Virus record (IMG/VR): IMGVR_UViG_3300046804_002248
Span: 1 to 32,621 of that record
Length of the DNA stretch: 32,621 nt
Strand: one strand, 5' to 3'
Source: a virus
Of the stretch, positions 361 through 11,264 are shown piece after piece. The translations under genes were made by a program, and so were the position numbers. A model generated the notes under the pieces. That model was not told where the DNA came from. It worked only from the letters and a program-made list of their open reading frames with translations, and did no database searches. Numbering within the stretch: the first letter of the stretch is position 1; each line of letters begins with the position of its first letter.

Positions 361-382
361 ATTATATATCCGACCACTGACA
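361..382 (-). promoter_or_regulatory. PafBC/RecA-NDp-type promoter P1
   Basis: ATGTCAGTG, 8 bp, then TATAAT on the minus strand (element 377-383, -10 at 361-366). It drives the Api92-like gene. It matches the consensus TTGTCRGTG-N8-TANNNT except for the first T. Confidence 0.7.
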
Positions 383-393
383 TTTGTCTATAT

Positions 394-408
394 GGTGTGG
401 ATCACACC
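394..408. promoter_or_regulatory. Palindrome GGTGTG-GAT-CACACC
   Basis: A 15-bp inverted repeat just upstream of promoter P1. It is a shortened relative of the TGTGA-N6-TCACA palindromes found upstream of other promoters in this arm. Its smaller spacer makes it the least convincing member. Confidence 0.35.
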
Positions 409-491
409 AAAGCTTGACCGAAATGTCCAAATTTCAGGGAATTTGATATTGACACCGTAAACAAATTTTGATACCCTCACAAACTATGGGC

Positions 492-521
492 AAATAAAAG
501 ATCCCCCTGTTTCCAGGGGGA
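492..521 (-). terminator. Rho-independent terminator
   Basis: A 7-bp stem (502-508 with 515-521), G/C-rich, with a 6-nt loop, followed on the minus strand by TCTTTTATTT. It ends leftward transcription from the 645-2687 operon, and would form the 3' end of the candidate small RNA. Confidence 0.75.
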
Positions 522-641
522 CTTTAAATGAATAGGGCTGCTAGTCAAACGAAAGGAATTAAGTAAACACTGCCTTACTTAGCGACTTGGTAAAAACCTA
601 GATAGCCGCACCCTATTGCTGCAACTGGCATTTAGCCAGTT
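502..641 (-). ncRNA. Candidate small RNA with anti-ribosome-binding-site segment
   Basis: On the minus strand, AATAGGG (617-611) can pair with CCCTATT (537-531), enclosing a GGT-TTTT-ACC mini-hairpin and an AAGTAA/TTACTT hairpin (580-561). A single-stranded linker, 560-547, reads AATTCCTTTCGTTT. This is the exact complement of the AAACGAAAGGAA stretch before many genes of this arm. A hairpin (641-623) lies at the 5' side and a strong terminator closes the 3' end. A TATAAT at 649-644, overlapping the upstream stop codon, could start it; otherwise it is a processed 3' UTR. The structure was folded by eye. The alternative is an inverted relic of a gene start. Confidence 0.45.
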
Positions 642-644
642 ACA

Positions 645-1049
645 TTATACCAAAACAAACGCTTCTGCGTATTTCTCACAGAATGTGTCAAGGTCCATGG
701 TGAAGATTGCTTCATTCTTCATGCCACGTACTTTGTTGTCCTGATTACGGAAATCGTCCTGCTCATGAAGACTGAATGTCTTCTGAACAAAATCGACAAT
801 AGCAATCTTGTGCTCGTTGTCACCGATTTCATTTACATGTAGGCCCCATCCAGTTTCCATATTCCATTGGTCCCCAATGAGGTTGCTAACAGCGATACGT
901 GTTGCATATGCTGTATCATTCCAGCGTGGCTTGGCCTTTGCTACAGCCTCAGCCAATTGGGCCAACATCTGATGTCCCGCCCAGTGTCCATACAGTACAA
1001 TTGTGTTTCCGTTCGGTTGTACAAATCCGAAGTTTGCTCTATCTCCCAC
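645..1049 (-). CDS. Conserved actinophage protein of unknown function (GDRANFGF type)
   Basis: The protein opens with GDRANFGFVQPNGN and has an LYGHWAGHQM segment, a WNMETGWGLHVNE block and a KVRGMKNEAIFTMDL block. This pattern is familiar from many actinobacteriophage genomes, with no known function. No signal or membrane segment is seen; it is likely a small soluble cytoplasmic protein. I prefer a GTG start at 1049 (134 aa) because AAAGGATGTAAA sits correctly before it. An ATG at 1064 gives 139 aa but has no ribosome-binding site. It overlaps the stop of the preceding gene, so translation is probably coupled. Confidence 0.75.
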   Translation of the reverse strand: MGDRANFGFVQPNGNTIVLYGHWAGHQMLAQLAEAVAKAKPRWNDTAYATRIAVSNLIGDQWNMETGWGLHVNEIGDNEHKIAIVDFVQKTFSLHEQDDFRNQDNKVRGMKNEAIFTMDLDTFCEKYAEAFVLV

Positions 1050-1050
1050 T

Positions 1051-1260
1051 TTACATCCTTTCATCGATTAGTTGTGGTACTTCTTCTGTCTTATTCAATT
1101 GTATAATTTCATAGGCCACTTTGTCAAGGGCCTCTTTATTTAAATTAAAATGATGACCGCAGAATGCTAATTCCCCGTCCATTAATTTAATTAAATACAT
1201 AGCTTGAGCTGAGCCACATTGGTCGCACCCAATCCATTTATTTAGATCCTCAGAGGTCAT
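1051..1260 (-). CDS. Small zinc-binding protein, DUF7455-like
   Basis: The 69-aa product carries CDQC near residues 12-15, and FCGHH about 20 residues later. The order CxxC, a beta-rich stretch, then FCxHH matches the DUF7455 type of small actinobacterial and phage zinc-ribbon protein, whose role is unknown. The start is the ATG at 1260, which overlaps the end of the upstream gene; a further upstream start at 1299 would overlap that gene extensively. The site is soluble and probably binds one zinc ion. Function is not known. Confidence 0.65.
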   Translation of the reverse strand: MTSEDLNKWIGCDQCGSAQAMYLIKLMDGELAFCGHHFNLNKEALDKVAYEIIQLNKTEEVPQLIDERM

Positions 1261-1405
1261 AGTCCACCGTCCCAAATTCAATGCGGTCAGCAACGTCATC
1301 CATTACTTGTCCCTCATCTGATGATTCAGCCCAGAGGCGGATATTAGCAATAATAACCTCCCTGGCGAATTTAACACCGTCTTCAAATCCCTCTTGATAA
1401 TCCAT
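1250..1405 (-). CDS. Hypothetical 51-aa protein
   Basis: A short acidic protein beginning MDYQEGFEDGVKFARE, mostly predicted helix (the GFEDGVKFAREVIIANIRLWAE type of helix is common in small phage proteins). The ATG at 1405 follows GGGAGATAAA, which decides this start over a longer one at 1447. It overlaps the next gene by 11 bp and is part of the 2687-to-645 operon. I do not recognise a function. Confidence 0.6.
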   Translation of the reverse strand: MDYQEGFEDGVKFAREVIIANIRLWAESSDEGQVMDDVADRIEFGTVDYDL

Positions 1406-1406
1406 T

Positions 1407-1619
1407 TTATCTCCCTGTATATCCTGTCGGCTCGTAGTCTGAGACATAAGTTTCCGTTAGATTAAACTTATCACGAATGCGACTTACTTTCTCAATGCTA
1501 CCAGTTCCGATGTTGAATGTCAATGGTGATAATGCATGTGGGTCTAACCCAATTACTTGGGCTTCCCAATAGGCCATCTCCATGGACAGCCTATCAGGAG
1601 CAGTTAACTCAAAGTACAT
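1407..1619 (-). CDS. Hypothetical 70-aa protein
   Basis: The product begins MYFELTAPDRLSMEMAYWEA and has no recognisable motif. The ATG at 1619 shares bases with the stop codon of the upstream gene (TAATG), so translation is probably coupled and no separate ribosome-binding site is visible. A longer start using TTG at 1628 adds only three residues. It belongs to the same leftward operon. Confidence 0.55.
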   Translation of the reverse strand: MYFELTAPDRLSMEMAYWEAQVIGLDPHALSPLTFNIGTGSIEKVSRIRDKFNLTETYVSDYEPTGYTGR

Positions 1620-2272
1620 TATCGCCAATCCACATCTGCATCTTCGACTTCATATGAGTCAATCACAATGTCGCCGTGGTATGCATCAACAGATAAATTA
1701 TCTTGCAGGAAGTAACGAGCATCGAAGTCTTCGACCTCTTCTAGTGGACAATCATAACGCAAATCAAAGGTGATAGTTCCTGTGATTCTGATTTCCTGCT
1801 TTGGCTCGTGTTCGAGGATTTCGCAGAGTTGCTCAAGAACTTCTGACTTTTCGATATTTGGATTATACCAACTATCTGCAGTTAAGTTTTCTAGAATTCT
1901 GCTAATCTGTGAGTTAGACATAGAGAGTTGCTTCTCTAAGCCTTTGATTCGCTCCAACTTCCACTCAAGGTCATTAACCTTAATTGTTGGATATGTAGGG
2001 ACACCGTCAATGATATCCTTATATGTGACAAGCACATTAGCGTTGTAGGTCGTTGGGACCTCTGTAGTTGTTTCCATATTATTCCTTTCATTCATAGGTG
2101 GTATTGTAGCATCTAGGACTGACACTAGTACAGGAGTTCGGCCACACGGGCATGTGATATTCCTCACACTCCCAGAAGGAAACCCAAACTTATCATTAGT
2201 TGTAACCTCGATTAAAGTATCACATTCATCAGGATCACAAACATATGTATTTTTAGTCCAGGTCTCAGACAT
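1619..2272 (-). CDS. Two-part protein: N-terminal zinc-ribbon-like segment fused to a phage hypothetical domain
   Basis: A 217-aa frame. Residues 1-60 hold two cysteine pairs (CDPDEC at 12-17 and CPC at 41-43), as in a small zinc ribbon. Residues 66-217 form a second unit with a helical stretch (about 95-140) and a beta-rich acidic end. The junction is unusual: codons 61-66 read through ATGAATGAAAGGAATAAT followed by ATG, the same ribosome-binding stretch used before independent genes in this arm. The second unit can therefore also start at 2077 as a 152-aa protein. The ATG at 2272 overlaps the preceding gene by 8 bp. Function unknown. Confidence 0.6.
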   Translation of the reverse strand: MSETWTKNTYVCDPDECDTLIEVTTNDKFGFPSGSVRNITCPCGRTPVLVSVLDATIPPMNERNNMETTTEVPTTYNANVLVTYKDIIDGVPTYPTIKVNDLEWKLERIKGLEKQLSMSNSQISRILENLTADSWYNPNIEKSEVLEQLCEILEHEPKQEIRITGTITFDLRYDCPLEEVEDFDARYFLQDNLSVDAYHGDIVIDSYEVEDADVDWR

Positions 2273-2687
2273 TAACTGGCTCCACCATTAGGTCTTGCCA
2301 AAGCCAGACGTTATTATCAAGGCGGGAACCAAAAGTTCTAACAAACTCAGCAATATCAGCAGTCTCACCAGTTAAGCAAGACTTAATTAATCCTACTGAC
2401 ATTTTAACTGAGCCATTGTATAGACCCATAGAACCTATATTTGTAGGTACATTAATTAGAGAGCGGTCTCTTTGTTCCCAGCCAACTCCCTCGTCACAAA
2501 CAAGGGCATAAATGTTGTCTCCCCAAACTTCGTCTTTCTTAGTCAACTTAATTAATAGCAAATCAGATACATCGATATTGTTATCAATTTCGTTTTCTAA
2601 ATATTGTGCGTTGTAAATTTTCTTAGCATGTTCTGCTAATAGTTTTCCGCTTACAACTTCACCAATATAGCCTTTTTTTCTTGACAT
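2265..2687 (-). CDS. Hypothetical 140-aa protein, first gene of an operon
   Basis: A soluble protein starting MSRKKGYIGEVVSGKLLAEH, with a central acidic, beta-rich portion and no motif I recognise. The start at 2687 is fixed by CGAAAGGAATATA directly before the ATG; an apparent start at 2720 would lie inside the promoter. It is the first gene after promoter P2 and leads six downstream genes that overlap or abut. Confidence 0.65.
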   Translation of the reverse strand: MSRKKGYIGEVVSGKLLAEHAKKIYNAQYLENEIDNNIDVSDLLLIKLTKKDEVWGDNIYALVCDEGVGWEQRDRSLINVPTNIGSMGLYNGSVKMSVGLIKSCLTGETADIAEFVRTFGSRLDNNVWLWQDLMVEPVNV

Positions 2688-2711
2688 TATATTCCTTTCG
2701 ATAATGGGTTT

Positions 2712-2733
2712 ATTATACACGCAGGGTCTGACA
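2712..2733 (-). promoter_or_regulatory. PafBC/RecA-NDp-type promoter P2
   Basis: ATGTCAGAC, 8 bp, TATAAT on the minus strand (-10 at 2712-2717). It precedes the gene starting at 2687. The TGTCRG core and spacing are kept; the trailing TG of the consensus is AC. Confidence 0.6.
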
Positions 2734-2764
2734 TTTGTCCAGCTTTTCCAGGGGATTTTTATAA

Positions 2765-2780
2765 TGTGCCGTAAATCACA
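2765..2780. promoter_or_regulatory. Crp/GlxR-like palindrome (one mismatch)
   Basis: TGTGC-N6-TCACA, centred about 60 bp upstream of the P2 -10. It matches TGTGA-N6-TCACA at nine of ten conserved positions. Confidence 0.5.
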
Positions 2781-2806
2781 TTTTCCGCCTTTAGCTATTG
2801 CGGGCG

Positions 2807-2935
2807 CTAATTAAATTTCCATGGATAATTTTTAATTTCATGATCAGCTTTAATGTGTGCAGTTAAAGTTAACGATGCAAACATTTGCCTAACTTGAATT
2901 TCTTTTTTACAGATCGCACAAATTACTATTCGCAA
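2807..2935 (-). CDS. C2H2-like zinc-finger microprotein, 42 aa
   Basis: Reading from a TTG at 2935, preceded by GGAGATAAT, gives 42 residues with CAIC at positions 6-9 and H27-x3-D-H32 farther on (Cys-x2-Cys ... His-x4-His). This is the layout of a classical zinc finger, and the tip is basic (CKKEIQVRQ). It may bind DNA or protein. The frame is too short for a routine ORF call. It lies only 9 bp beyond a strong terminator, so expression may depend on read-through of that terminator. The TTG start lowers confidence. Confidence 0.5.
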   Translation of the reverse strand: MRIVICAICKKEIQVRQMFASLTLTAHIKADHEIKNYPWKFN

Positions 2936-2943
2936 ATTATCTC

Positions 2944-2978
2944 CAAAAAAAATATGTAGGGGGGCTTTCGCCCCCCTA
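2944..2978 (-). terminator. Strong rho-independent terminator
   Basis: A 9-bp stem (2957-2965 with 2970-2978; TAGGGGGGC paired with GCCCCCCTA) with a TTTC loop (GAAA on the RNA), then a run of eight T on the minus strand after ACATA. It directly follows the stop of the DUF932 gene. Confidence 0.9.
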
Positions 2979-2983
2979 ACAAT

Positions 2984-3991
2984 TTACGCAGACTTTACAA
3001 TTTGTAAAATCTTATTTTTTTCTGCGGTAATCACAGGGTCAAAACCTGAAGCAGAAGCCCACTTAGATTCTGATTGACCACGAGTAGAACGGAAATAGTC
3101 AAGGCGTTCGGTTAGCGCATTGAAAGCACCCCACTTTGTGCCCTTGATATTTGCGTTAGTAGGTGAATTGAAATAAAGGTCATCAAGCAAAACGACTTTA
3201 TTCTCCCACTTAGTCATAGCAACCTTAGATGAATCTTCGGCAGGCTTTGGATAAACCTTGCGAACAATATCATAGAATTGCTTATCGGTAATTTCTGACT
3301 TGAACAATTCTTGAGCCTCTTTTTCAAAAGCGTCAAAATATCCAAGAGTAAGACCAAGAGTCTCACGAGCAATTTGAATCTTGCCCTCAGCGGTCTGCGT
3401 GTGGCGAATCTTGAAAGATTGCTTAGCAGATTTCATTGCTAGGTTTAGAGTATTTTGGCAAACTACACGAACAGGTGTAATCGCTGCCTGAACAGCAACA
3501 GAGCCGTCGTGAGATGTCCATACAATAAGATAAAGTTTAGTCTTATCGTTAGCACCTTGTGGGTCTAGCACCATTTCACGGGGAACATTGAGAGAGCCGA
3601 ATACGACTTTACCCTTTTTTAGAGAGCCAGCAGATTCCCAAGCACAACGAGAATCGCCGTCAAGGATATTGTCTGCGAATGAAAATAATTCTTCATTCTG
3701 AACAACCTTATAGCGAGAACCGACAACAGACAAAACATCGGTTTCGTTATTGAATGGGTTATTGCGGATTACATATTGAGCACCGCTAGTATCATTCCAA
3801 TCTTGTGGAATGTAATCGGTAATTGGTGTAAGACGAACATTCCAATTAGATAGTTTTGCTTCGTCAAGCATTAGTTGAGTTGAAACAGATTCTTCTTCTG
3901 AGAAGATTCTATTTGCTAGATTGTGCCAAGCGGGATTTCCACGCAAGGCGAAAGCGACTTCGTCGCCATTAGTCTCAAGATTATGAGCCAT
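2984..3991 (-). CDS. DUF932 family phage/plasmid-like protein
   Basis: The 335-aa product starts MAHNLETNGDEVAF and continues with a PAWHNLANR segment, then alternating strands and a Lys-rich middle. This is the pattern of the DUF932 (TIGR03299, phage/plasmid-like) family, common on plasmids and phages, usually of 280-350 aa, with unestablished function. The ATG at 3991 follows TCGAAAGGATAAAAA. The gene has its own promoter P3 upstream and a strong terminator right after the stop, so it is a single-gene transcription unit. It is the longest gene in the left arm, which suggests high expression. Confidence 0.8.
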   Translation of the reverse strand: MAHNLETNGDEVAFALRGNPAWHNLANRIFSEEESVSTQLMLDEAKLSNWNVRLTPITDYIPQDWNDTSGAQYVIRNNPFNNETDVLSVVGSRYKVVQNEELFSFADNILDGDSRCAWESAGSLKKGKVVFGSLNVPREMVLDPQGANDKTKLYLIVWTSHDGSVAVQAAITPVRVVCQNTLNLAMKSAKQSFKIRHTQTAEGKIQIARETLGLTLGYFDAFEKEAQELFKSEITDKQFYDIVRKVYPKPAEDSSKVAMTKWENKVVLLDDLYFNSPTNANIKGTKWGAFNALTERLDYFRSTRGQSESKWASASGFDPVITAEKNKILQIVKSA

Positions 3992-4023
3992 TTTTTATCC
4001 TTTCGATAGTTAGTTATAACCCG

Positions 4024-4045
4024 ATTATACACCACGCCACCGACA
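4024..4045 (-). promoter_or_regulatory. PafBC/RecA-NDp-type promoter P3
   Basis: ATGTCGGTG, 8 bp, TATAAT on the minus strand (-10 at 4024-4029). It drives the DUF932 gene. Only the first base differs from the published consensus. Confidence 0.75.
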
Positions 4046-4083
4046 TTGTAAATAGTTAGTTACAAGATGGGGCAATTCGGACA

Positions 4084-4099
4084 TGTGATAATTCTCACA
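4084..4099. promoter_or_regulatory. Crp/GlxR-like palindrome
   Basis: TGTGA-TAATTC-TCACA, a full match to TGTGA-N6-TCACA, centred about 65 bp upstream of the P3 -10. Confidence 0.65.
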
Positions 4100-4111
4100 A
4101 AATTTCTGGCG

Positions 4112-4143
4112 TTTTCCACAGATCACCGTAACCCTGTGGATAA
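4112..4143. promoter_or_regulatory. Inverted DnaA-box pair
   Basis: TTTTCCACA (4112-4120) and TGTGGATAA (4135-4143, the reverse of TTATCCACA) face each other 14 bp apart. Both fit the DnaA box consensus TTWTNCACA. They can also form a TCCACAG/CTGTGGA hairpin. The pair sits between the Crp-like palindrome and a CCCGCA/TGCGGG hairpin (4145-4161). Confidence 0.5.
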
Positions 4144-4217
4144 CCCCGCAGTATTTGCGGGCCAGCTTGGGAAATGGGGCAGGCATCTAGATTAGTGTGC
4201 AACCCGCCCCAAGATCT

Positions 4218-4460
4218 TTAGCCAAGCAATTTAGTTAGTTCAGTTTTCTTTGGAATAACTTCCATTGGTAAAAATAATGCTGTTGTCTTTTTCTTTTTTA
4301 CATTGTCGTAGACATAAGCACGAACATTACCAGAAAAACGGCGGAGATTAGAAAATACTAATTCGGTTAGATATTCTTTATCAACACCGCTTTCTGAATA
4401 GATAGTCAAATCATTTGACTTTACTTCATCATAGATTTCAATACGAAAACGATTTCTCAT
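4218..4460 (-). CDS. Hypothetical 80-aa basic protein
   Basis: The product begins MRNRFRIEIYDEVKS and has a Lys-rich patch (KKKKTTALF); no known motif. Its ATG overlaps the stop of the upstream gene (ATGA), indicating translational coupling. A G/C-rich imperfect inverted repeat (4176-4210) follows the stop and may end the transcript. Function unknown. Confidence 0.55.
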   Translation of the reverse strand: MRNRFRIEIYDEVKSNDLTIYSESGVDKEYLTELVFSNLRRFSGNVRAYVYDNVKKKKTTALFLPMEVIPKKTELTKLLG

Positions 4461-4666
4461 TTACCTGATACCTGTCCATTTCGGTAGAAGTTCTTTGTAT
4501 ACATTTTCCCATTAGGGTCTGATAAGTTATAGGTTGCGTATTCTTTGGCATCGCCATAGTCTACGCATTTATTCCACGCATTTACAATTTCAAGCAAATC
4601 TGCGCTGCGTGTTGTTGATACTAGTTCTCCGTCATAGGAGATTGTTAGGCTGTAATTGTATTCCAT
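4457..4666 (-). CDS. Hypothetical 69-aa protein
   Basis: A short soluble protein starting MEYNYSLTISYDGELVS, probably beta-rich at the start and helical around EIVNAWNKCVDYGDAKEY. The ATG is preceded by GGAAAGCAACAAA. It is the first gene of a two-gene unit with a sigma-A-like promoter. Function not recognised. Confidence 0.6.
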   Translation of the reverse strand: MEYNYSLTISYDGELVSTTRSADLLEIVNAWNKCVDYGDAKEYATYNLSDPNGKMYTKNFYRNGQVSGK

Positions 4667-4695
4667 TTTGTTGCTTTCCGTTAGTAGGGATAGAA

Positions 4696-4725
4696 ATTAT
4701 AACATTAGAGACTAGATTTTGTCTA
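4696..4725 (-). promoter_or_regulatory. Sigma-A-like promoter
   Basis: TAGACA, 18 bp, TATAAT on the minus strand (4720-4725 and 4696-4701). Unlike its neighbours it lacks the TGTCRG element. It drives the gene starting at 4666. Confidence 0.6.
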
Positions 4726-4768
4726 GTGGCAGGGTGTTGTCGGTAGCCCACGCACCCTGCCCCATAGA

Positions 4769-5191
4769 TTACAAGTATCTAGCGATAGCGTTGTAGGTTG
4801 AAGTTGAAACTACTTCCTCGTCCGTCATCTTTAGGATACGGATAGCATTTTCAATTTCCTCTACCATTTCCTTATACTGCCAATCGTGGTAAGTATCAAA
4901 GTCTTTGGTAGGTTCAGCAGGTAGGTCAATACAACCTTTAGGCAAGTTGAAATCAACATTTATCATACCATTGTAGCGAAGGCTTGCGGTCAAGTCCTCT
5001 GCCTTTGCGATAGCACCGAGAGCAAGTTTAGCAACATCTTTAGACCACTTTTCGTGAGCCTTTGTGAAGCGAGCCTCGTTCTCTGCCTGATTAGCCTTAT
5101 CCTTTTGGATTTGTGCTAACTTGTTTTCCAAAGCCTTGATAACTTTGGTTGTAGCGATTTTTACGCTAATGGATTTTCCATTTCTAGCCAT
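4769..5191 (-). CDS. Conserved phage hypothetical protein, 140 aa
   Basis: The N-terminal half is a long basic helix, probably coiled coil (about residues 14-65, rich in Lys, Ala, Glu and Gln), followed by a short beta segment and an acidic helical C-terminus ending in the YNAIARYL type of tail. The ATG at 5191 follows CAAACGAAAGGAAAAACAA, the full consensus ribosome-binding stretch. Promoter P5 precedes it. Function unknown; a structural or scaffolding-like soluble protein would fit the coiled coil, but this is a guess. Confidence 0.65.
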   Translation of the reverse strand: MARNGKSISVKIATTKVIKALENKLAQIQKDKANQAENEARFTKAHEKWSKDVAKLALGAIAKAEDLTASLRYNGMINVDFNLPKGCIDLPAEPTKDFDTYHDWQYKEMVEEIENAIRILKMTDEEVVSTSTYNAIARYL

Positions 5192-5221
5192 TTGTTTTTC
5201 CTTTCGTTTGGTTAGAGAGAG

Positions 5222-5243
5222 ATTGTAGCAGGTAGCACCGACA
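5222..5243 (-). promoter_or_regulatory. PafBC/RecA-NDp-type promoter P5
   Basis: TTGTCGGTG, 8 bp, TACAAT on the minus strand (-10 at 5222-5227): a complete match to TTGTCRGTG-N8-TANNNT. It drives the gene starting at 5191. The element lies in a perfect 11-bp inverted repeat (5228-5238 with 5246-5256). Confidence 0.85.
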
Positions 5244-5256
5244 AAGTGCTACCTGC
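5228..5256. repeat. Perfect 11-bp inverted repeat over promoter P5
   Basis: GCAGGTAGCAC and GTGCTACCTGC separated by 7 bp. RNA reading through from the upstream gene would form this hairpin, so it may serve as an insulator or terminator without a U-run while the DNA serves as promoter. Confidence 0.6.
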
Positions 5257-5263
5257 CATTTGT

Positions 5264-5416: not shown

Positions 5417-5441
5417 TTATTTTTCCTTTCGTTAGGGGTCT

Positions 5442-5463
5442 ATTGTAGCGGATACCACCGACA
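5442..5463 (-). promoter_or_regulatory. PafBC/RecA-NDp-type promoter P6
   Basis: TTGTCGGTG, 8 bp, TACAAT on the minus strand (-10 at 5442-5447): full consensus. It drives the 50-aa gene at 5416. GCGGATACC (5448-5456) and GGTATCCGC (5467-5475) form an inverted repeat across it. Confidence 0.85.
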
Positions 5464-6078: not shown

Positions 6079-6100
6079 ATTATACACCTACCCACCGACA
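6079..6100 (-). promoter_or_regulatory. PafBC/RecA-NDp-type promoter P7
   Basis: ATGTCGGTG, 8 bp, TATAAT on the minus strand (-10 at 6079-6084). It drives the gene starting at 6049. The element starts only a few bases past the stop codon of the upstream gene. GGTGGGTAG (6070-6078) and CTACCCACC (6088-6096) flank the -10 as an inverted repeat. Confidence 0.75.
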
Positions 6101-6356: not shown

Positions 6357-6388
6357 TATTTTTTCCTTTCGTTTGTCGTTATGAAGCG

Positions 6389-6410
6389 ATTATACACGAA
6401 GCCTGCGACA
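6389..6410 (-). promoter_or_regulatory. PafBC/RecA-NDp-type promoter P8
   Basis: ATGTCGCAG, 8 bp, TATAAT on the minus strand (-10 at 6389-6394). It drives the gene starting at 6356. TGTC and the spacing are kept, while later positions deviate. Confidence 0.55.
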
Positions 6411-6443
6411 TTTTCTAATCTAGTTACGGCGTGTCGCATGATT

Positions 6444-6459
6444 TGTGAGATTTCTCACA
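6444..6459. promoter_or_regulatory. Crp/GlxR-like palindrome
   Basis: TGTGA-GATTTC-TCACA, full match, extended by one base pair on each side (TTGTGA/TCACAA). It is centred about 60 bp upstream of the P8 -10. Confidence 0.7.
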
Positions 6460-6469
6460 AAATCCAGGG

Positions 6470-6502
6470 TTATCCACAAGTAACCCGTAAGGCTGTGGAA
6501 AA
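6470..6502. promoter_or_regulatory. Inverted DnaA-box pair
   Basis: TTATCCACA (6470-6478, perfect consensus) and TGTGGAAAA (6494-6502) face each other 15 bp apart. It mirrors the pair at 4112-4143, with the perfect and variant boxes swapped, and lies in the same position relative to the Crp-like palindrome. Confidence 0.55.
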
Positions 6503-6537
6503 CCCCCCATATTTTGCGGGCCCAAGCTGAGCTATTT

Positions 6538-6636
6538 TTATTTTTTAAAAACAGCCCAGATTGCAATTGCAAAAGGTCCCACGATCATGATCATGAATAT
6601 GCTAAATAAAATTGCAGCTAAAATATTTTCTATCAT
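6538..6636 (-). CDS. Single-span membrane microprotein, 32 aa
   Basis: Starts MIENILAAILFSIFMIMIVG and ends with a Lys-Lys tail: one hydrophobic segment of about 20 residues, cytoplasmic basic end. Its ATG overlaps the stop of the GP88-like gene (ATGA), so it is translationally coupled to it. Small phage membrane peptides include lysis inhibitors and superinfection-exclusion factors, but nothing here decides between them. Confidence 0.6.
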   Translation of the reverse strand: MIENILAAILFSIFMIMIVGPFAIAIWAVFKK

Positions 6637-7361
6637 TTTTTACTCGCAGAAAATCTAATATCCGCTTTATTGTAAACGCATAAACCACATGACACACATG
6701 CGCTGCCATTAGTTGAAATTAACGGAATTTGTTTATTATTCTCAGGACATTTTGCGCCAACCTTACCAGTTAATTCTTTCATGGTACTTTCAGTTAGAGC
6801 GAATGTCTTTCCTAAGTATGCTAAACGTGTACCGTGTAAATCACGGAGAGACTTAGCAATTTCTTTATTTTCATCATCAGTAGAGAAATAAAGAGATAAG
6901 TTAGGAATATCCTGCAGAATAGGTACGGCAGAATAAACACGGGTATACACCCAGAATTGAACATCCTTGTGGCGATTGATTACAGTCTTCCACGCATATG
7001 CATAGGTATCTGAAAAGAAATCTCCGTCCCAGTGGATACGGAATAGTTTTTCTGCATTGCGTTTATCGCAGTCCGCCTTGAATTCGATTATCATTTCATC
7101 AAGGAGAGATACCATTGTGGTAATATCTGCATTCTTAAGTAATTCCCAGTTATGCAGAAGAGTAGCCTTTACTCCCTTGAATAACTTTTCAAGTTTACCA
7201 GCGTAGCAAACAGTTTCACAGATAGACGTTGCACCAGGACATGAAAAGTCTTTTCCTGCGGGTAGTCCGAAAGTATTTGCGATTGTTGGGGTCTTTCCAT
7301 TTTTTGAGACAGCATTAGCCACCTTCCTATCATTAGAGCGTTTTAATTTCATAGCAGACAT
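6633..7361 (-). CDS. GP88-family phage protein with cysteine clusters
   Basis: A 242-aa product of the type first known as mycobacteriophage gene product 88. It shows NTFGLPAGKDFSCPGATSIC, then CYAGK near residue 52, an FRIHWDGDFFSDTYA block, an FSTDDEN block and a C-terminal cysteine cluster (CPEN; CVSCGLC). The cysteines suggest bound metal or an iron-sulphur cluster. The biochemical role is unknown. The ATG at 7361 directly follows the stop of the upstream gene and overlaps the -10 of promoter P9; an in-frame ATG at 7352 sits at the expected start point of that promoter and would be leaderless. Upstream starts to 7439 overlap the preceding gene and are rejected. Confidence 0.75.
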   Translation of the reverse strand: MSAMKLKRSNDRKVANAVSKNGKTPTIANTFGLPAGKDFSCPGATSICETVCYAGKLEKLFKGVKATLLHNWELLKNADITTMVSLLDEMIIEFKADCDKRNAEKLFRIHWDGDFFSDTYAYAWKTVINRHKDVQFWVYTRVYSAVPILQDIPNLSLYFSTDDENKEIAKSLRDLHGTRLAYLGKTFALTESTMKELTGKVGAKCPENNKQIPLISTNGSACVSCGLCVYNKADIRFSASKK

Positions 7362-7381
7362 TATACTATTCCCAACCGACA
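7360..7381 (-). promoter_or_regulatory. PafBC/RecA-NDp-type promoter P9, inside coding sequence
   Basis: TTGTCGGTT, 8 bp, TATAAT on the minus strand (-10 at 7360-7365), located in the last codons of the upstream gene. The predicted transcript start falls on the ATG at 7352. Confidence 0.6.
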
Positions 7382-7518
7382 AGCGAAAAGAATTCCATGT
7401 CCATTTGGTCAAAGCATTCGGCACATTGGTAGCCGTCATTATAGTATTCTAAATCTTTATCATTGACATAAGTAGCAGTGCCACAAATCTCATAAAAATC
7501 GCAGTAAATTGTAGTCAT
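7366..7518 (-). CDS. Zinc-ribbon-like microprotein, 50 aa
   Basis: Starts MTTIYCDFYEICGTATYV and has C6, C12 and a CAEC pair (about 33-36), i.e. four cysteines in two pairs, as in small zinc ribbons. The ATG at 7518 follows AACGAAAGGAAACTA, which rules out the longer frame to 7566. It has its own promoter P10 and is followed without gap by the GP88-like gene. Function unknown. Confidence 0.65.
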   Translation of the reverse strand: MTTIYCDFYEICGTATYVNDKDLEYYNDGYQCAECFDQMDMEFFSLVGWE

Positions 7519-7543
7519 TAGTTTCCTTTCGTTAGAGGGCTCC

Positions 7544-7565
7544 ATTATAGCGGAGCCCACCGACA
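7544..7565 (-). promoter_or_regulatory. PafBC/RecA-NDp-type promoter P10
   Basis: ATGTCGGTG, 8 bp, TATAAT on the minus strand (-10 at 7544-7549). It drives the gene at 7518 and overlaps the stop of the gene ending at 7567. GGCTCC (7538-7543) and GGAGCC (7552-7557) bracket the -10. Confidence 0.75.
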
Positions 7566-7566
7566 T

Positions 7567-8064
7567 TTACCAAGAAGAGTGGTATGAAAAGGACAATTTG
7601 TCGAAATCGGGCAAATTGAACAGGCGGTCAAGTTTCTTGATAGTTTCCTTGATATCTTGCCAATACCACTCATCGATATCATATGAACCAAAGAAGAAGC
7701 CAGCCTGCGGCGGCAGCAAACTAGGGTCTTTAGCGAATAAGGCTTGACGACAAGTTTCCCTAAGTTCTTTTAGTTTCTCATGGGATACATAGTAATCACC
7801 GCAGTCATCTTCACCGCCTTGTACATTATCGACAAACCATTTGTGAATCTGATTAGACTTACGCCAATAAGCACAAGTAACCTCTACATTTACACCATAG
7901 ATATCATGAGCGACATCTAGCATACCGCTAGTCTTTACAATATCTTTCCATAGTGGATTAATTGCTTCAGGTGAATCATAAGTTAATTCATCGTTATTGT
8001 GTAGAGTTTGCCAATTAACTTTCTCTACATACTTTTTTGCGTGGAGATACATATCTAAACCCAT
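7567..8064 (-). CDS. Conserved phage protein of the MGLDMYL type, function unknown
   Basis: The 165-aa product opens MGLDMYLHAKKYVEKV and contains a YWRKSNQIHKWFVDNVQGG block, a DDCGDYYVSHEKLKEL block and an EWYWQDI segment. This pattern recurs in phages and some bacteria without a known function; the YWRK-x-N-x-IHxWF block is the most conserved part. It is soluble, with many Trp, Tyr and acidic residues. The ATG at 8064 follows AACGAAAGGAAATAACT. Its promoter region has the full module (P11 with Crp-like palindrome). Confidence 0.75.
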   Translation of the reverse strand: MGLDMYLHAKKYVEKVNWQTLHNNDELTYDSPEAINPLWKDIVKTSGMLDVAHDIYGVNVEVTCAYWRKSNQIHKWFVDNVQGGEDDCGDYYVSHEKLKELRETCRQALFAKDPSLLPPQAGFFFGSYDIDEWYWQDIKETIKKLDRLFNLPDFDKLSFSYHSSW

Positions 8065-8094
8065 AGTTATTTCCTTTCGTTGGGATACGCAGCA

Positions 8095-8116
8095 ATTATA
8101 GCAGAGCCGACTGACA
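8095..8116 (-). promoter_or_regulatory. PafBC/RecA-NDp-type promoter P11
   Basis: ATGTCAGTC, 8 bp, TATAAT on the minus strand (-10 at 8095-8100). It drives the gene starting at 8064. Confidence 0.65.
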
Positions 8117-8144
8117 TTTTCAGCGACACGCCGAGAATTTTCAG

Positions 8145-8160
8145 GGTGATTTTTATCACA
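8145..8160. promoter_or_regulatory. Crp/GlxR-like palindrome (one mismatch)
   Basis: GGTGA-TTTTTA-TCACA, centred about 57 bp upstream of the P11 -10. Nine of ten conserved bases match. Confidence 0.55.
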
Positions 8161-8205
8161 CCCGTAACGACACGCCCGACCCCGTGTCTTTTGCGGGCGC
8201 AGCTG

Positions 8206-8280
8206 CGATGCGTATGGGATTTGAACCCATGATCTTCACAGTGACAGTGTGATGATTTAACCAAACTAATCTAACGCACC
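8206..8280 (-). tRNA. tRNA-Asp(GTC)
   Basis: A complete cloverleaf on the minus strand, 75 nt without CCA. The acceptor stem GGTGCGT/ACGCATC pairs at all 7 positions (one G-U). The D stem is GATT/AATC, the anticodon stem TCACA/TGTGA, the anticodon loop CTGTCAC (anticodon GTC, Asp), the variable loop 5 nt, and the T stem ATGGG/CCCAT with a TTCAAAT loop. The discriminator is G73, as expected for Asp. CCA is not encoded. It lies 10 bp after the stop of a 41-aa gene and is probably cut from that operon's transcript. The 65-aa frame across it is not a gene. Confidence 0.9.
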
Positions 8281-8290
8281 AAATTTTTAT

Positions 8291-8416
8291 TTATGTTTTT
8301 TTATTTTTATGTTTTCGTTTTCTTGTATAAGTTTTTTTACTTGGAATTGGTGTCGCCGCATTACTACGGCGAATTTCCAAAACTTTTTTTATTCTTTCTT
8401 TATTTTCTGTTTTCAT
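8291..8416 (-). CDS. Very basic 41-aa microprotein
   Basis: Starts MKTENKERIKKVLEIRRS and ends in a Lys/Arg/His-rich tail; roughly 40% of its residues are basic. AAAAAGGACAGAAA precedes the ATG at 8416. Such peptides often bind nucleic acid, but no motif proves it. It follows the 62-aa gene by 18 bp and is directly followed by tRNA-Asp. Confidence 0.6.
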   Translation of the reverse strand: MKTENKERIKKVLEIRRSNAATPIPSKKTYTRKRKHKNKKT

Positions 8417-8434
8417 TTTCTGTCCTTTTTTTAT

Positions 8435-8623
8435 TTAGTTGCTGAAAGTTGGTATTTTATAATTTGACGCTTTATAAAATTTATTTGCGTCAAATCGTGG
8501 ATTATCTTTTGCGAACATTTCCGCAAAATCTACAACCATTTTAGAAAAAACGGCTGGGTGTGTTTTGTCAGAAACAAACGCCAAAATTTTGGCGGTTTCT
8601 ACATAGTCTTTACGGGTCATCAT
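8435..8623 (-). CDS. Conserved actinophage hypothetical protein, 62 aa
   Basis: Two helices with a conserved-looking core: DYVETAKILAFVSDKTHP, then FSKMVVDFAEMFAKDNPRFDANKFYKA. The FADMFAxDNPRFD-type pattern is common in small actinophage proteins of unknown function. Its ATG overlaps the upstream stop (TAATG), with GGAGG 11 bp before it. Confidence 0.65.
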   Translation of the reverse strand: MMTRKDYVETAKILAFVSDKTHPAVFSKMVVDFAEMFAKDNPRFDANKFYKASNYKIPTFSN

Positions 8624-8769
8624 TATTCGCTAACCTCCAAAACATCAAACGCATCAAATTTTGCTAATTCGCTATCAGGCAAAGAAGCAAGAGATTTATT
8701 TAGAGCAAAGATAGCGGATAAATCGCTATCTGCCTCCACGACATAAGAAATCAAAACATTTTTTTTCAT
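8623..8769 (-). CDS. Hypothetical 48-aa acidic protein
   Basis: Starts MKKNVLISYVVEADSDLSA: one strand followed by acidic helices. AGGAGG lies 11 bp before the ATG at 8769, which I prefer over a start at 8811 inside the upstream gene. Overlaps the next gene's start. Function unknown. Confidence 0.55.
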   Translation of the reverse strand: MKKNVLISYVVEADSDLSAIFALNKSLASLPDSELAKFDAFDVLEVSE

Positions 8770-8770
8770 T

Positions 8771-8968
8771 TTATTTAGCCTCCTGTGTGGTAAATAGTGT
8801 TCCTGTATCAACTACGCTTTTGTCGTAGTCAATGATTATTTTGTATGGGTTACAATCGCAATACTCAAAGTCATAATCTCCGTCAGGTGATACCCAACCT
8901 GTTACGCCAAAGCCAAAGCAATCCTCACAATTTAGAATTGTGTCAATTAGTTCATTAGTGGTTTTCAT
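8771..8968 (-). CDS. Small Cys-rich protein, 65 aa
   Basis: Begins MKTTNELIDTILNCEDCFGF; cysteine pairs CEDC (14-17) and CDC (about 37-39) could bind a metal, similar to a degenerate DnaJ-type half zinc finger. Starts behind AAACGAAAGGAAAACTAAAA and is the first gene of a four-gene unit ending in tRNA-Asp. Function unknown. Confidence 0.6.
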   Translation of the reverse strand: MKTTNELIDTILNCEDCFGFGVTGWVSPDGDYDFEYCDCNPYKIIIDYDKSVVDTGTLFTTQEAK

Positions 8969-8998
8969 TTTTAGTTTTCCTTTCGTTTATGAAATCCG

Positions 8999-9020
8999 AT
9001 TATAGCAGAAGCCACCGACA
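8999..9020 (-). promoter_or_regulatory. PafBC/RecA-NDp-type promoter P12
   Basis: ATGTCGGTG, 8 bp, TATAAT on the minus strand (-10 at 8999-9004). It drives the 65-aa gene and overlaps the stop of the gene ending at 9022 (TAAATGTCGG). Confidence 0.75.
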
Positions 9021-9021
9021 T

Positions 9022-9234
9022 TTAGTCGGGTAGCCTTACTTCAACAGTAGCCCATTGGTCTACGATAGAACCTGTCGGGCGATAGCGAACCGCATAGTGT
9101 TCGTATCCGATAGGTGGATAGGTATCCTCTCGCTTAGTAGCATAGTTTATAATTCCACCATTGAAACGACGGCGGAGAGAGGTTGGCGCATAGTATTGGT
9201 CTACTAGCAAATCAACAATAGAGTAACTTCTCAT
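9022..9234 (-). CDS. Hypothetical 70-aa protein, paralogue of the gene at 10617
   Basis: A small beta-rich, basic protein. It shares an outline with the 64-aa gene at 10617-10811: a Ser-rich start, a helix ending in LLV, a tyrosine, RSR/RRR-like basic residues, then a Tyr-x2-VR-x-RP block near the end. This suggests an old duplication. The ATG follows AAAGAAAGGAAAACTA and a sigma-A-like promoter. Function unknown. Confidence 0.6.
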   Translation of the reverse strand: MRSYSIVDLLVDQYYAPTSLRRRFNGGIINYATKREDTYPPIGYEHYAVRYRPTGSIVDQWATVEVRLPD

Positions 9235-9259
9235 TAGTTTTCCTTTCTTTAGGTTAGCA

Positions 9260-9288
9260 ATTTTACCAAAAAATTACGGGCTTTTCAA
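9260..9288 (-). promoter_or_regulatory. Sigma-A-like promoter
   Basis: TTGAAA, 17 bp, TAAAAT on the minus strand (9283-9288 and 9260-9265). It drives the gene starting at 9234 and lacks the TGTCRG element of its neighbours. Confidence 0.65.
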
Positions 9289-9328
9289 ATCCTAGCGGGA
9301 TTTTCTCAGATTTTGAGACGCTCAGGCG

Positions 9329-9344
9329 TGTGACTTTGATCACA
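9329..9344. promoter_or_regulatory. Crp/GlxR-like palindrome overlapping a stop codon
   Basis: TGTGA-CTTTGA-TCACA, full match, extended to GTGTGA/TCACAC. The TGA stop of the upstream zinc-ribbon gene lies inside its right half. It is centred about 73 bp upstream of the 9260 -10. Confidence 0.65.
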
Positions 9345-9519
9345 CGGGGAGAACATCTGTTCCGTATTTTTCAACGGCATCATAGAGGCTCATCATTCCT
9401 TTATAGTCTTTACATCTAGGGCAAAATCTATTCCACCCATCTGTAAGAGCTGAACAAAATACGCAGATTTTATCTGTTACGCAGAAATTATTTTCTACCA
9501 AATAATCAATTGTATTCAT
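9340..9519 (-). CDS. Zinc-ribbon protein, 59 aa
   Basis: Reading from the ATG at 9519, behind AGAAAGGAAAACTAA, gives a 59-aa protein. CVFC (19-22) and CPRC (33-36) are spaced as in a classical zinc ribbon. An aromatic, charged stretch lies between the pairs. The gene is co-directional with the next upstream zinc protein, 14 bp away. Zinc ribbons of this size often touch nucleic acid or RNA polymerase; no specific role can be assigned. Confidence 0.65.
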   Translation of the reverse strand: MNTIDYLVENNFCVTDKICVFCSALTDGWNRFCPRCKDYKGMMSLYDAVEKYGTDVLPV

Positions 9520-9532
9520 TTAGTTTTCCTTT

Positions 9533-9745
9533 CTAGTCTGCGAAATAAATCGCACCTTTTACATTTTTATGATTTTCGCAAACATTTCCTTTTGCGATTT
9601 CTTTATGACAAACGAAACATAACATTGTAAATTGTTTAGTCATAAGACCTAATTCTATGTTCATTTGTTCATCTTTAGTTGCTTCTGAGAAATCAACCCA
9701 GCCAGCACCATTTTCATTTATTCTAAAAATTTCTAAATTAGCCAT
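9533..9745 (-). CDS. Small zinc-binding protein, 70 aa
   Basis: CFVCH and VCENH (last third) give a Cys-x2-Cys ... Cys-x2-His zinc-binding pattern. The N-terminal half is acidic with a beta-like start (MANLEIFRINENGAGWVDF). AGAAAGGAAAACTAAA precedes the ATG. First gene of a two-gene unit with a sigma-A-like promoter. Function unknown. Confidence 0.6.
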   Translation of the reverse strand: MANLEIFRINENGAGWVDFSEATKDEQMNIELGLMTKQFTMLCFVCHKEIAKGNVCENHKNVKGAIYFAD

Positions 9746-9778
9746 TTTAGTTTTCCTTTCTAATTTCTAACTATCGCT

Positions 9779-9807
9779 AGTTTAACAGAAAAAATCGCTA
9801 CTATCAA
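9779..9807 (-). promoter_or_regulatory. Sigma-A-like promoter
   Basis: TTGATA, 17 bp, TAAACT on the minus strand (9802-9807 and 9779-9784). Drives the gene at 9745; no TGTCRG element. Confidence 0.6.
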
Positions 9808-9848
9808 GTATACTGACGAGTAGTCTTAAAGAATGAGACGGCGTGTCG

Positions 9849-9864
9849 TGTGATAAAAATCACA
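9849..9864. promoter_or_regulatory. Crp/GlxR-like palindrome
   Basis: TGTGA-TAAAAA-TCACA, full match, centred about 75 bp upstream of the 9779 -10. Confidence 0.65.
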
Positions 9865-9909
9865 GGAATTTTCAGGGAATTACGTAAATCGGACATAACG
9901 GTACAAATC

Positions 9910-9950
9910 GCCCGCAAAAGATGCGGGCAGCTATCTACTTTGTCAAGTAG
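9910..9950. repeat. Two consecutive hairpins after the 9965 gene
   Basis: GCCCGCA (9910-9916) with TGCGGGC (9922-9928), and CTACTT (9935-9940) with AAGTAG (9945-9950). They lie just beyond the stop of the minus-strand gene and may protect or end its transcript; there is no U-run. Confidence 0.45.
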
Positions 9951-9964
9951 ACACGCCGCTATTG

Positions 9965-10108
9965 TTATTTAAATTTATGAAATCTTTTTTTATAAATCTT
10001 ATAACCGATCACAACAATTAGGGCGGGAATAATAACCTGCCATGATAACGCTATATAGCAAACATAGGTATCGAATTCTAATCCATAGTCATTTAGTTCA
10101 AGTGTCAT
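9965..10108 (-). CDS. Single-span membrane microprotein, 47 aa
   Basis: An acidic N-terminus (MTLELNDYGLEFDTY), then a hydrophobic stretch of about 20 residues (CYIALSWQVIIPALIVVIGY), then a basic tail (KIYKKRFHK): a type of membrane peptide with N-out, C-in by the positive-inside rule. It starts 6 bp after the stop of the preceding gene, with no strong ribosome-binding site, so it is probably coupled. Function unknown. Confidence 0.55.
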   Translation of the reverse strand: MTLELNDYGLEFDTYVCYIALSWQVIIPALIVVIGYKIYKKRFHKFK

Positions 10109-10113
10109 TTTAT

Positions 10114-10293
10114 TTATTCCATTTCCATTTCTATTTCTTCCATTGGTATATCAAAGCCATCATTTAGCAATTCATTTAGCGAAAGTTCATCGCTTTCATT
10201 TTCTTCTTCATAGTCATCTATTACAGAATATCCGTGTTGAATACTTTCATATTTATAATCGTTATTATTTACTTCCCAAGACATAGCATACAT
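10114..10293 (-). CDS. Very acidic 59-aa protein
   Basis: The second half is dominated by Glu, Asp and Ser (EEENESDELSLNELL), giving a strongly negative charge such as DNA-mimic or inhibitor proteins have; this is only a resemblance. The ATG at 10293 follows AAAGGAGAACGCATA and overlaps the stop of the previous gene (TAATG). The start at 10320 is rejected as it lies inside that gene. Confidence 0.55.
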   Translation of the reverse strand: MYAMSWEVNNNDYKYESIQHGYSVIDDYEEENESDELSLNELLNDGFDIPMEEIEMEME

Positions 10294-10412
10294 TATGCGT
10301 TCTCCTTTACACATTGGCAAGGTTCAATCTCATAGTCATTATCATTACCGATAAACACAAGACCAGCACCATAGCACTCGCTACAATCAAATACCATTAC
10401 GCTATTTATCAT
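10293..10412 (-). CDS. Cys-rich zinc microprotein, 39 aa
   Basis: Residues 10-13 are CSEC and a CQC pair lies near the end (32-34), with GAGLVFIGNDNDYEIE between: the same layout as the 65-aa Cys-rich protein at 8771-8968. Its ATG overlaps the previous stop (TAATG), and it is preceded by AAAGGATAATAAATA. Function unknown. Confidence 0.55.
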   Translation of the reverse strand: MINSVMVFDCSECYGAGLVFIGNDNDYEIEPCQCVKENA

Positions 10413-10525
10413 TATTTATTATCCTTTTCTTTTGTTGCTATTGTAGCGGTTAGCACCGACAAGGCTTCTGCCTTACTTGCTTCACGTGTCGCTATAACGT
10501 GAGCCTTGAATTCATCTAAGTTCAT
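10412..10525 (-). CDS. Hypothetical 37-aa microprotein
   Basis: A single amphipathic helix-like protein starting MNLDEFKAHVIATREASK. The ATG at 10525 follows TTGAAAGGAAATAAATAA. Promoter P13, which serves the next genes, lies within its last codons, so the coding and promoter sequences constrain each other. Function unknown. Confidence 0.6.
   Translation of the reverse strand: MNLDEFKAHVIATREASKAEALSVLTATIATKEKDNK
10440..10461 (-). promoter_or_regulatory. PafBC/RecA-NDp-type promoter P13, within a gene
   Basis: TTGTCGGTG, 8 bp, TACAAT on the minus strand (-10 at 10440-10445): full consensus. It lies inside the 37-aa gene and would drive the genes at 10412 and 10293. Confidence 0.75.
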
Positions 10526-10557
10526 TTATTTATTTCCTTTCAATTTGTTATGTCGTT

Positions 10558-10579
10558 AGACTATCAGACTTGACCGACA
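10558..10579 (-). promoter_or_regulatory. PafBC/RecA-NDp-type promoter P14
   Basis: ATGTCGGTC, 8 bp, TAGTCT on the minus strand (-10 at 10558-10563). It drives the 37-aa gene at 10525. CTTGA/TCAAG arms surround the element. Confidence 0.6.
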
Positions 10580-10607
10580 TTATCAAGCCGACACGCTAGA
10601 GCGTGGG

Positions 10608-10621
10608 TGTGAGTTATCACA
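10608..10621. promoter_or_regulatory. Crp/GlxR-like palindrome with a 4-bp spacer
   Basis: TGTGA-GTTA-TCACA (GTGTGA/TCACAC arms), two bases shorter than the other sites. It overlaps the end of the 64-aa gene (stop at 10617) and lies about 53 bp upstream of the P14 -10. Confidence 0.45.
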
Positions 10622-10811
10622 CACTCACCGCTACTATGCGATAGGTGTCTTTCAACCTATTGTTAGGGCGAATACGGACACGATACGCTTCAGCGTTCTC
10701 ATACCATACGGCATCGTGCTTTTCTGCGGATAGGATTTCTCCCTCTACGGAACGGCTACGATAGATTTTGCCTACTAGTAGGCTTTCGATATTGTATAGA
10801 TTAGCACTCAT
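10617..10811 (-). CDS. Hypothetical 64-aa protein, paralogue of the gene at 9022
   Basis: A basic, beta-rich protein starting MSANLYNIESLLVGKIYRSR and ending in a YRVRIRPNNRL-like block, the same outline as the 70-aa protein at 9022-9234. The ATG follows GAAAGGTAGGTAGCCAA. Function unknown. Confidence 0.6.
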   Translation of the reverse strand: MSANLYNIESLLVGKIYRSRSVEGEILSAEKHDAVWYENAEAYRVRIRPNNRLKDTYRIVAVSV

Positions 10812-10844
10812 TTGGCTACCTACCTTTCATTTTGTTATATTGGA

Positions 10845-10866
10845 ATACTATCAGATTAGAGCGACA
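10845..10866 (-). promoter_or_regulatory. PafBC/RecA-NDp-type promoter P15
   Basis: ATGTCGCTC, 8 bp, TAGTAT on the minus strand (-10 at 10845-10850). It drives the gene at 10811. Confidence 0.5.
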
Positions 10867-10886
10867 TTATCAAGACGACACGCCGT

Positions 10887-11054
10887 TTAGATTGTGTGAG
10901 TTGCCTCACACTCAGCGGAGCATTTAGACGGGAGGCTAAAGAGATACTTTAGGAGAGCCTTACGCTCAGACATTGAGATTTCAGGGTGATATTGTTTAAC
11001 ACCTCCGTGTTGATATTCATACACGATTTTTTCTAAGGTATTTTTGGTTAGCAT
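10887..11054 (-). CDS. Hypothetical 55-aa protein, first gene of the leftward arm
   Basis: Starts MLTKNTLEKIVYEYQHGG and looks helical with a basic middle; ends in CSAECEATHTI. The ATG at 11054 follows AGTAGGTAGCAAAT, like the next gene's site. It is the first gene downstream of promoter P16, after a leader of about 180 nt. The Crp-like palindrome at 10895 overlaps its last codons. Function unknown. Confidence 0.55.
   Translation of the reverse strand: MLTKNTLEKIVYEYQHGGVKQYHPEISMSERKALLKYLFSLPSKCSAECEATHTI
10895..10910. promoter_or_regulatory. Crp/GlxR-like palindrome inside a gene end
   Basis: TGTGA-GTTGCC-TCACA, full match, within the last codons of the 55-aa gene and about 55 bp upstream of the P15 -10. 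Confidence 0.6.
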
Positions 11055-11141
11055 ATTTGCTACCTACTTTCTTTTTTTAACTAGTGGCAGGGATTTCGCC
11101 TATTTACTATTTCTACCCTTATTTATTTTTTTGCTGACCTA

Positions 11142-11206
11142 GATTATTTGCTGATTATTTGCTTAGGCTCACCTTTCGGATTATTTGCTAAGGCTCACAG
11201 GCTCAC
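11142..11206. repeat. Direct repeats in the leader of the leftward arm
   Basis: GATTATTTGCT occurs at 11142-11152, 11153-11163 and 11179-11189; AGGCTCAC occurs at 11165-11172, 11191-11198 and 11199-11206. On the minus strand this gives two copies of a five-codon frame (GTG AGC CTN AGC AAA then TAA), one of them after GAAAG. Confidence 0.7.
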
Positions 11207-11242
11207 TAGGATTTTTCTCTATTTAATTTTTCTTATACTATA

Positions 11243-11264
11243 AGCATAACAGGGGGGTCTGACA
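11243..11264 (-). promoter_or_regulatory. PafBC/RecA-NDp-type promoter P16, head of the arm
   Basis: ATGTCAGAC, 8 bp, TATGCT on the minus strand (-10 at 11243-11248). A TATAGTAT follows directly and could be an alternative -10. It is the first leftward promoter. Confidence 0.5.

Follow-up and report, generated by a model that had tools for sequence, protein, structure and literature searches.

The virus record IMGVR_UViG_3300046804_002248 of IMG/VR, analysed here over its whole length of 32,621 nt (the window; 32.6 kb, 38% GC), carries in its leftward gene arm an array of minus-strand promoters in which a TGTCRG element stands 10 bp before a -10 hexamer. Judged from sequence comparisons, this arm is quite probably a dispersed regulon of promoters of the host PafBC (RecA-NDp) type. 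The recA P1/RecA-NDp consensus has been given as tTGTCRgtg-8 nt-TannnT (PMC5656591), and PafBC of mycobacteria, which is activated by single-stranded DNA (ssDNA), acts at a -26 element via sigma adaptation (PMC11804915). Because the element is shared with repair genes of PafBC-encoding actinobacteria, the phage sites are best read as promoters of the host PafBC type; and because the arm promoters resemble those of host repair genes, the host DNA-damage alarm is probably used as a viral gene switch. A sequence-only reading of the window had proposed that the arm is a target of PafBC. The promoter class in that proposal, RecA-NDp/PafBC, is strongly supported by the consensus match, by the elements found in host-type genomes and by the lack of a WYL protein in the phage sequences searched, and binding and induction by PafBC itself would be expected of such promoters.

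Geometry of the promoter array

Both strands of the window were scanned with the strict pattern TGTC[AG]G-N10-TA...T, and 300 dinucleotide shuffles served as control. There are 15 copies on the minus strand and none on the plus strand, and the shuffles contain a mean of 0.29 and a maximum of 2 copies. Within the promoter arm alone there are 14 strict sites against 0.09 expected. All 15 sites listed in the sequence-only reading are found on the minus strand at the positions assigned to them, three of them (5222, 5442 and 10440) match TTGTCRGTG-N8-TANNNT completely as had been described, and neither the plus strand nor shuffled sequence reaches a comparable density. The promoters of the arm, including one that had not been listed, are the following.

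361..382, minus strand: PafBC-type promoter, -26 element TGTCAGTGG, -10 TATAAT; -35-like TAGACA at 18 bp; ATG at 334
2103..2124, minus strand: additional PafBC-type promoter absent from the earlier list, TGTCAGTCCTAGATGCTACAAT; Shine-Dalgarno (SD) sequence, ATG at 2077
2712..2733, minus strand: PafBC-type promoter, TGTCAGACC variant; -35-like TGGACA at 18 bp; ATG at 2687
4024..4045, minus strand: PafBC-type promoter of the DUF932 gene; -35-like TTTACA at 17 bp
5222..5243, minus strand: PafBC-type promoter, full match TTGTCGGTG-N8-TACAAT
5442..5463, minus strand: PafBC-type promoter, full match TTGTCGGTG-N8-TACAAT
6079..6100, minus strand: PafBC-type promoter, perfect palindrome across the -10
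6389..6410, minus strand: PafBC-type promoter, TGTCGC variant
7360..7381, minus strand: PafBC-type promoter of a GP88-family gene; ATG 7 nt past the -10, leaderless start near 7352
7544..7565, minus strand: PafBC-type promoter
8095..8116, minus strand: PafBC-type promoter, TGn extended -10
8999..9020, minus strand: PafBC-type promoter, top score with a matrix built from host genes only
10440..10461, minus strand: PafBC-type promoter, full match TTGTCGGTG-N8-TACAAT
10558..10579, minus strand: PafBC-type promoter; -35-like TTGATA at 17 bp; TGn extended -10
10845..10866, minus strand: PafBC-type promoter, TGTCGC variant; -35-like TTGATA at 17 bp
11243..11264, minus strand: PafBC-type promoter, TGTCAGACC variant; -35-like TTGAAA at 18 bp

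The strict count of 15 leaves out the listed TGTCGC sites at 6389 and 10845 and takes in two unlisted matches, at 2103 and 18992. The former has an SD sequence, an ATG at 2077 and, 44 bp upstream, a CRP-type box, and is in all likelihood a genuine sixteenth promoter; the latter, lying within a plus-strand gene, is probably a chance match. The spacing is sharp: TGTC-N12-TA...T is present 22 times on the minus strand, and other spacings are present 1-8 times. A peak at gap 5 in the spacing scan is mostly a by-product of CTA within the spacer. Thirteen of the 15 listed sites are followed by an SD sequence (mostly GAAAGGA) and an ATG 24-33 bp past the -10; a start codon downstream of promoter 11243 was looked for and none was found.

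The element in related phages and in actinobacterial genomes

The window phage resembles a Stanwilliamsviridae-like actinophage in its homologies and arm order. Identity to Streptomyces phage proteins is ~67% for its ribonucleotide reductase (RNR) and ~50% for its DUF932 protein and, as in the Stanwilliamsviridae (Streptomyces phages Yaboi, Coruscant and others), a leftward arm of small genes is followed by glycosyltransferase and RNR genes. A megablast search of the arm against named phages gave no match. Yaboi has a second annotated copy of its arm genes at the right genome end (119-131 kb), which places the Yaboi arm in a terminal repeat of ~12 kb; this direct repeat is a feature of Yaboi by annotation, the window phage being known from a fragment alone. 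Relatives were found via the DUF932 protein alone, with the motif disregarded.

2984..3991, minus strand: DUF932 gene; its product shares ~50% identity with gp4 of Streptomyces phage Yaboi and served as anchor in the search for relatives

The array is present in all 80 relatives, in 6-20 copies on one strand (mean 15.2), with control values per locus of 0.04 for the reverse strand and 0.06 for spacings of +-1 taken together. With the PafBC spacing, a scan of IMG/VR for the promoter plus an SD sequence gave at least 119 stretches, compared with 1 when the spacing was altered by 3. In 34 larger records most sites lie on a single strand, and in a 116 kb record (G002) they fill one ~12 kb arm, with none in the remainder. 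When the search pattern fixes TGTC and TA...T alone, TGTC is followed by RG in 91% of 735 related sites; 57% of related sites are within 0-1 mismatch of TTGTCRGTG, the first T is frequently A, and the variants TGTCAGACC and TGTCAGTCC are common.

Start codons give an additional view of the promoters. Among 657 related sites, reading frames of 60 or more codons begin with an ATG 7 nt past the -10 in 39 cases and 6 nt past it in 10, and the remaining distances from 3 to 13 nt account for five cases. Leaderless host genes under the element have their ATG at the same distance after the -10. This ATG spacing lends indirect support to transcription starting at the distance past the -10 that the sequence-only reading had predicted.

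WhiB, an actinophage marker, is encoded in 16 of 26 array-carrying relatives. A WYL protein was found in none of 34 array carriers and a Sigma70_r2 domain in none of 26, two large relatives and the window were searched for a PafB/C-like open reading frame (ORF) with no match, and the phage sequences examined likewise gave no CRP homologue. A scan of genome contigs for the promoter with a short AAAGGA leader gave 51 matches, none of them in an Actinobacteria-titled record. Two of the 51 (L133 and L174) are on CAINGU010000031.1, a contig of 109.9 kb filed as a cyanobacterium; with its WhiB gene it is probably an actinophage that was binned wrongly.

On the bacterial side, TGTCRGTG-N8-TANAAT has matches in 63 of 395 Actinomycetes genomes, with 1 match for the reversed control. 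The element lies upstream of recA, typically as TGTCAGTGGCGCCTGCTACCTT, in 19 of 30 small genomes of 1.2-1.6 Mb (0.2 expected) and is found at carD in five genomes. Throughout the whole 1.5 Mb genome G617, TTGTC[AG]G occurs in 9 copies at the PafBC spacing and in 0-4 at others, and recA, a regulator resembling clgR, a DUF6504-dnaE2-Y-polymerase cluster and a DNA methylase are among the genes downstream of the element. WYL proteins are encoded in all 30 genomes searched, usually including an adjacent pair of ~310-340 aa. The pair of G617, the one genome in which PafB/PafC identity was checked against solved structures, matches PafB (5e-43) and PafC (4e-23) and is followed by tatA, i.e. a pafB-pafC-tatA locus. 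With a matrix trained on host sites only, the top seven matches in the window are seven of the listed phage sites. The phage sites are like the RecA-NDp promoters of mycobacteria and Streptomyces in element, orientation and 8-nt spacing to the -10, and unlike them in that ~15 are packed into one ~11 kb arm with a CRP-type box upstream of most.

Upstream of a short ORF, PafBC-type promoters are also seen in L310 (from G617), as a tandem pair, and in L315 (from G687). The two loci have the leader core ACACGCAAGGCCGCCAAACCAGGCCTTA in common, for which there is no Rfam match.

Alternative readings of the array

Several observations weigh against assigning the array to PafBC. The statement in the sequence-only reading that no site has a normal -35 does not hold: hexamers with 5/6 identity to TTGACA lie at 17 or 18 bp in promoters 361, 2712, 4024, 10558, 10845 and 11243, such that a -35 at 5/6 or better is present at 6 of the 15 sites and missing from 9. 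Near-consensus -35 hexamers at 17-18 bp are likewise present in 22.6% of 619 related sites and absent from 77%. The TGn extended -10 is found at six window sites and at about half of the related sites. With these hexamers and TGn elements, part of the array could be active independently of PafBC. The element is not essential to the phage type, since the nearest relatives in culture do without it in the homologous arm: Yaboi, unlike the window, has arm promoters of the form TTGAC-N18-TA...T with no -26 element, and the array is absent from 13 cultured actinophage records, Stanwilliamsviridae among these. The host-side genomes are streamlined actinobacteria selected for small size and for the motif, and may not include the true host. 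In three lower-GC genomes (G579, G652 and G549) recA has only TGTCCTA, and six of the listed phage sites score below zero with the host-site matrix. Full TTGACA, TGTC and TATAAT stand together in hybrid promoters of L045 and L102; these hybrids, with the roughly one quarter of sites retaining a near-consensus -35, suggest a gradual switch of promoter type from TTGACA to TGTCRG.

The alternative that survives best, itself unlikely, is that TGTCRG is read by a phage-encoded non-WYL protein, DNA-binding or sigma-appropriating, and that the likeness to the host element is mimicry or coincidence. Such a protein would suit the density of sites, ~1.4 per kb in the phage arm versus 14 in 1.36 Mb of host genome, and might be encoded among the many small arm and replication genes without assigned function. 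However, the phage sequences searched yielded no WYL, Sigma70_r2 or PafB/C-like ORF, and the agreement with the recA element of small actinobacteria extends to six bases, to the variable R and to the precise spacing.

Still less probable is that these are ordinary SigA promoters, with an extended -10 and a weak -35, in whose spacer TGTCRG serves as operator for a repressor. The extended -10 in about half of the related sites, the -35-like hexamers and the hybrid promoters described above are features that such an arrangement would produce, but a usable -35 is missing from most sites and the element is also found ahead of actinobacterial recA, clgR, dnaE2 and carD. The base-exact distance to the -10 (0.06 versus 15.2 per locus) suits a factor that touches RNA polymerase over a repressor. 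A different host activator at the -26 site, a PafBC paralogue or a SiwR-like WYL protein, is very improbable, since SiwR, which too acts at -26 in mycobacteria, depends on a GGA triplet rather than on TGTCRG (PMC10693628) and since most small genomes tested encode, as WYL proteins, just an adjacent pair of PafBC size plus a single protein of ~730-790 aa.

Control by LexA/SOS was considered as well and rejected, with 21 LexA-like boxes (<=2 mismatches) in the 1.37 Mb of the 80 loci and none in the window.

Additional signals, proposed mechanism and meaning

A second, putative CRP-type input, missed by the sequence-only reading, is probably combined with that of PafBC. Palindromes TGTGA-N6-TCACA (<=2 mismatches) are located within 120 bp upstream of ~60% of 708 related promoters as compared to 10% of random positions, at offsets of 34, 44, 54, 64 and 75 bp, i.e. 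one helical turn apart, with an additional set at 49-50. Over the 80 loci 484 palindromes have the exact spacing of 6, against 0-15 at other spacings. The palindrome is identical to that of actinobacterial CRP/GlxR sites, and the steps of about one turn upstream are as in class I CRP promoters. In divergent groups the -26 array is present and CRP boxes are few or absent, which makes the -26 element the common part. Boxes of CRP/GlxR type in the window are at 2153, 2765, 4084, 5502, 6444, 8145, 9329, 9849, 10608, 10895 and 11313; those listed below, without strand, are placed relative to the promoter that each precedes.

2153..2168: TGTGA-N6-TCACA palindrome of CRP/GlxR type, preceding the -26 element of promoter 2103 by 44 bp
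4084..4099: palindrome of CRP/GlxR type, preceding promoter 4024 by 54 bp
6444..6459: palindrome of CRP/GlxR type, preceding promoter 6389 by 49 bp
8145..8160: palindrome of CRP/GlxR type with 1 mismatch, preceding promoter 8095 by 44 bp
10608..10623: palindrome of CRP/GlxR type with 1 mismatch, preceding promoter 10558 by 44 bp
10895..10910: palindrome of CRP/GlxR type, preceding promoter 10845 by 44 bp
11313..11328: palindrome of CRP/GlxR type, preceding promoter 11243 by 64 bp

At 9225-9344 and 9740-9864 a CRP box is followed by a TATAAT-like hexamer and an SD sequence, with no TGTC element at the usual place; these are possibly further promoters of another type. In G617 GTGA-N6-TCAC is strikingly rare (2 copies versus 21-51 at other spacings), and the genome encodes one CRP homologue. 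A third motif, GGCGTGTCG with core GGCGTGTC, has 400 copies in both orientations over the 80 loci, with 1 and 1 for permuted controls. As GGCGTGTC(G) it is present in the window at 6428, 9840 (plus strand), 8125, 8169, 9950 and 10877 (minus strand), and it often lies 16-25 bp upstream of the -26 element or ahead of TTGAC.

The palindrome over the -10 of promoter 6079-6100 is kept in orthologous promoters of relatives such as L182, L184, L192 and L205. Relatives differ by base changes on both arms: GTGGGCTAG...CTAGCCCAC, GGTGGGTAG...CTACCCACC and GAGGGCTAG...CTAGCCCTC. Hairpins over promoters are not generally enriched (15% of sites versus 17% of controls), and a reading of them as RNA attenuators was therefore dropped. 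The promoter arm also contains a tRNA-Asp (gtc) at 8205-8280, which was the sole match of an Rfam search. Outside the arm, a tryptophan halogenase-family gene (Pfam 1e-101) lies at 27975-29567 amid phage tail-type genes.

In the mechanism proposed, each gene or small operon of the arm would be under its own promoter, with TGTCRGTG centred near -26, TGTCRG 10 bp before a SigA -10 and a strong -35 usually missing. By sigma adaptation, the likeliest mode of action, host PafB would contact the -26 element and PafC would keep SigA region 4 off the -35. As in mycobacteria, ssDNA would switch on PafBC, and ssDNA arising from infection, phage replication, nucleases or earlier damage, e.g. by sunlight, would raise expression of the whole arm; the sequence-only reading had spoken of gene dosage, for which expression is the correct term. 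In the main clade a dimer of CRP/GlxR type, bound upstream on the same face of the helix, would probably add a metabolic input. Taken as a whole, the picture of a large freshwater-actinophage clade in which an entire arm, possibly early and within a terminal repeat, is a PafBC regulon triggered by the ssDNA of infection, with a cAMP-CRP type input in the main clade, is one that we favour by a small measure.

Coliphage 186 and the Bacillus phage GIL01 have expression tied to the host SOS regulator LexA. As would be the case in the window, a phage gene set is read there via the host DNA-damage sensor; LexA is a repressor removed by damage, whereas PafBC is an activator that ssDNA turns on. The earlier claim that no phage arm had been reported under PafBC is upheld by literature searches, which covered open-licence papers and returned no report of PafBC-run phage promoters. 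If the reading is true, this would be the first phage group reported in that literature with a whole arm under PafBC, the main actinobacterial DNA-damage activator, and a case of activator-based hijacking of the host damage response. The idea can be tested now with cultured 'Ca. Planktophila' and its phages (PMC10202952) and with pafBC mutants of M. smegmatis. The array is at the same time a sequence signature by which this group of freshwater actinophages can be recognised in metagenomes, and a trigger by ssDNA would connect the expression of phage genes in freshwater with infection and with damage by sunlight.

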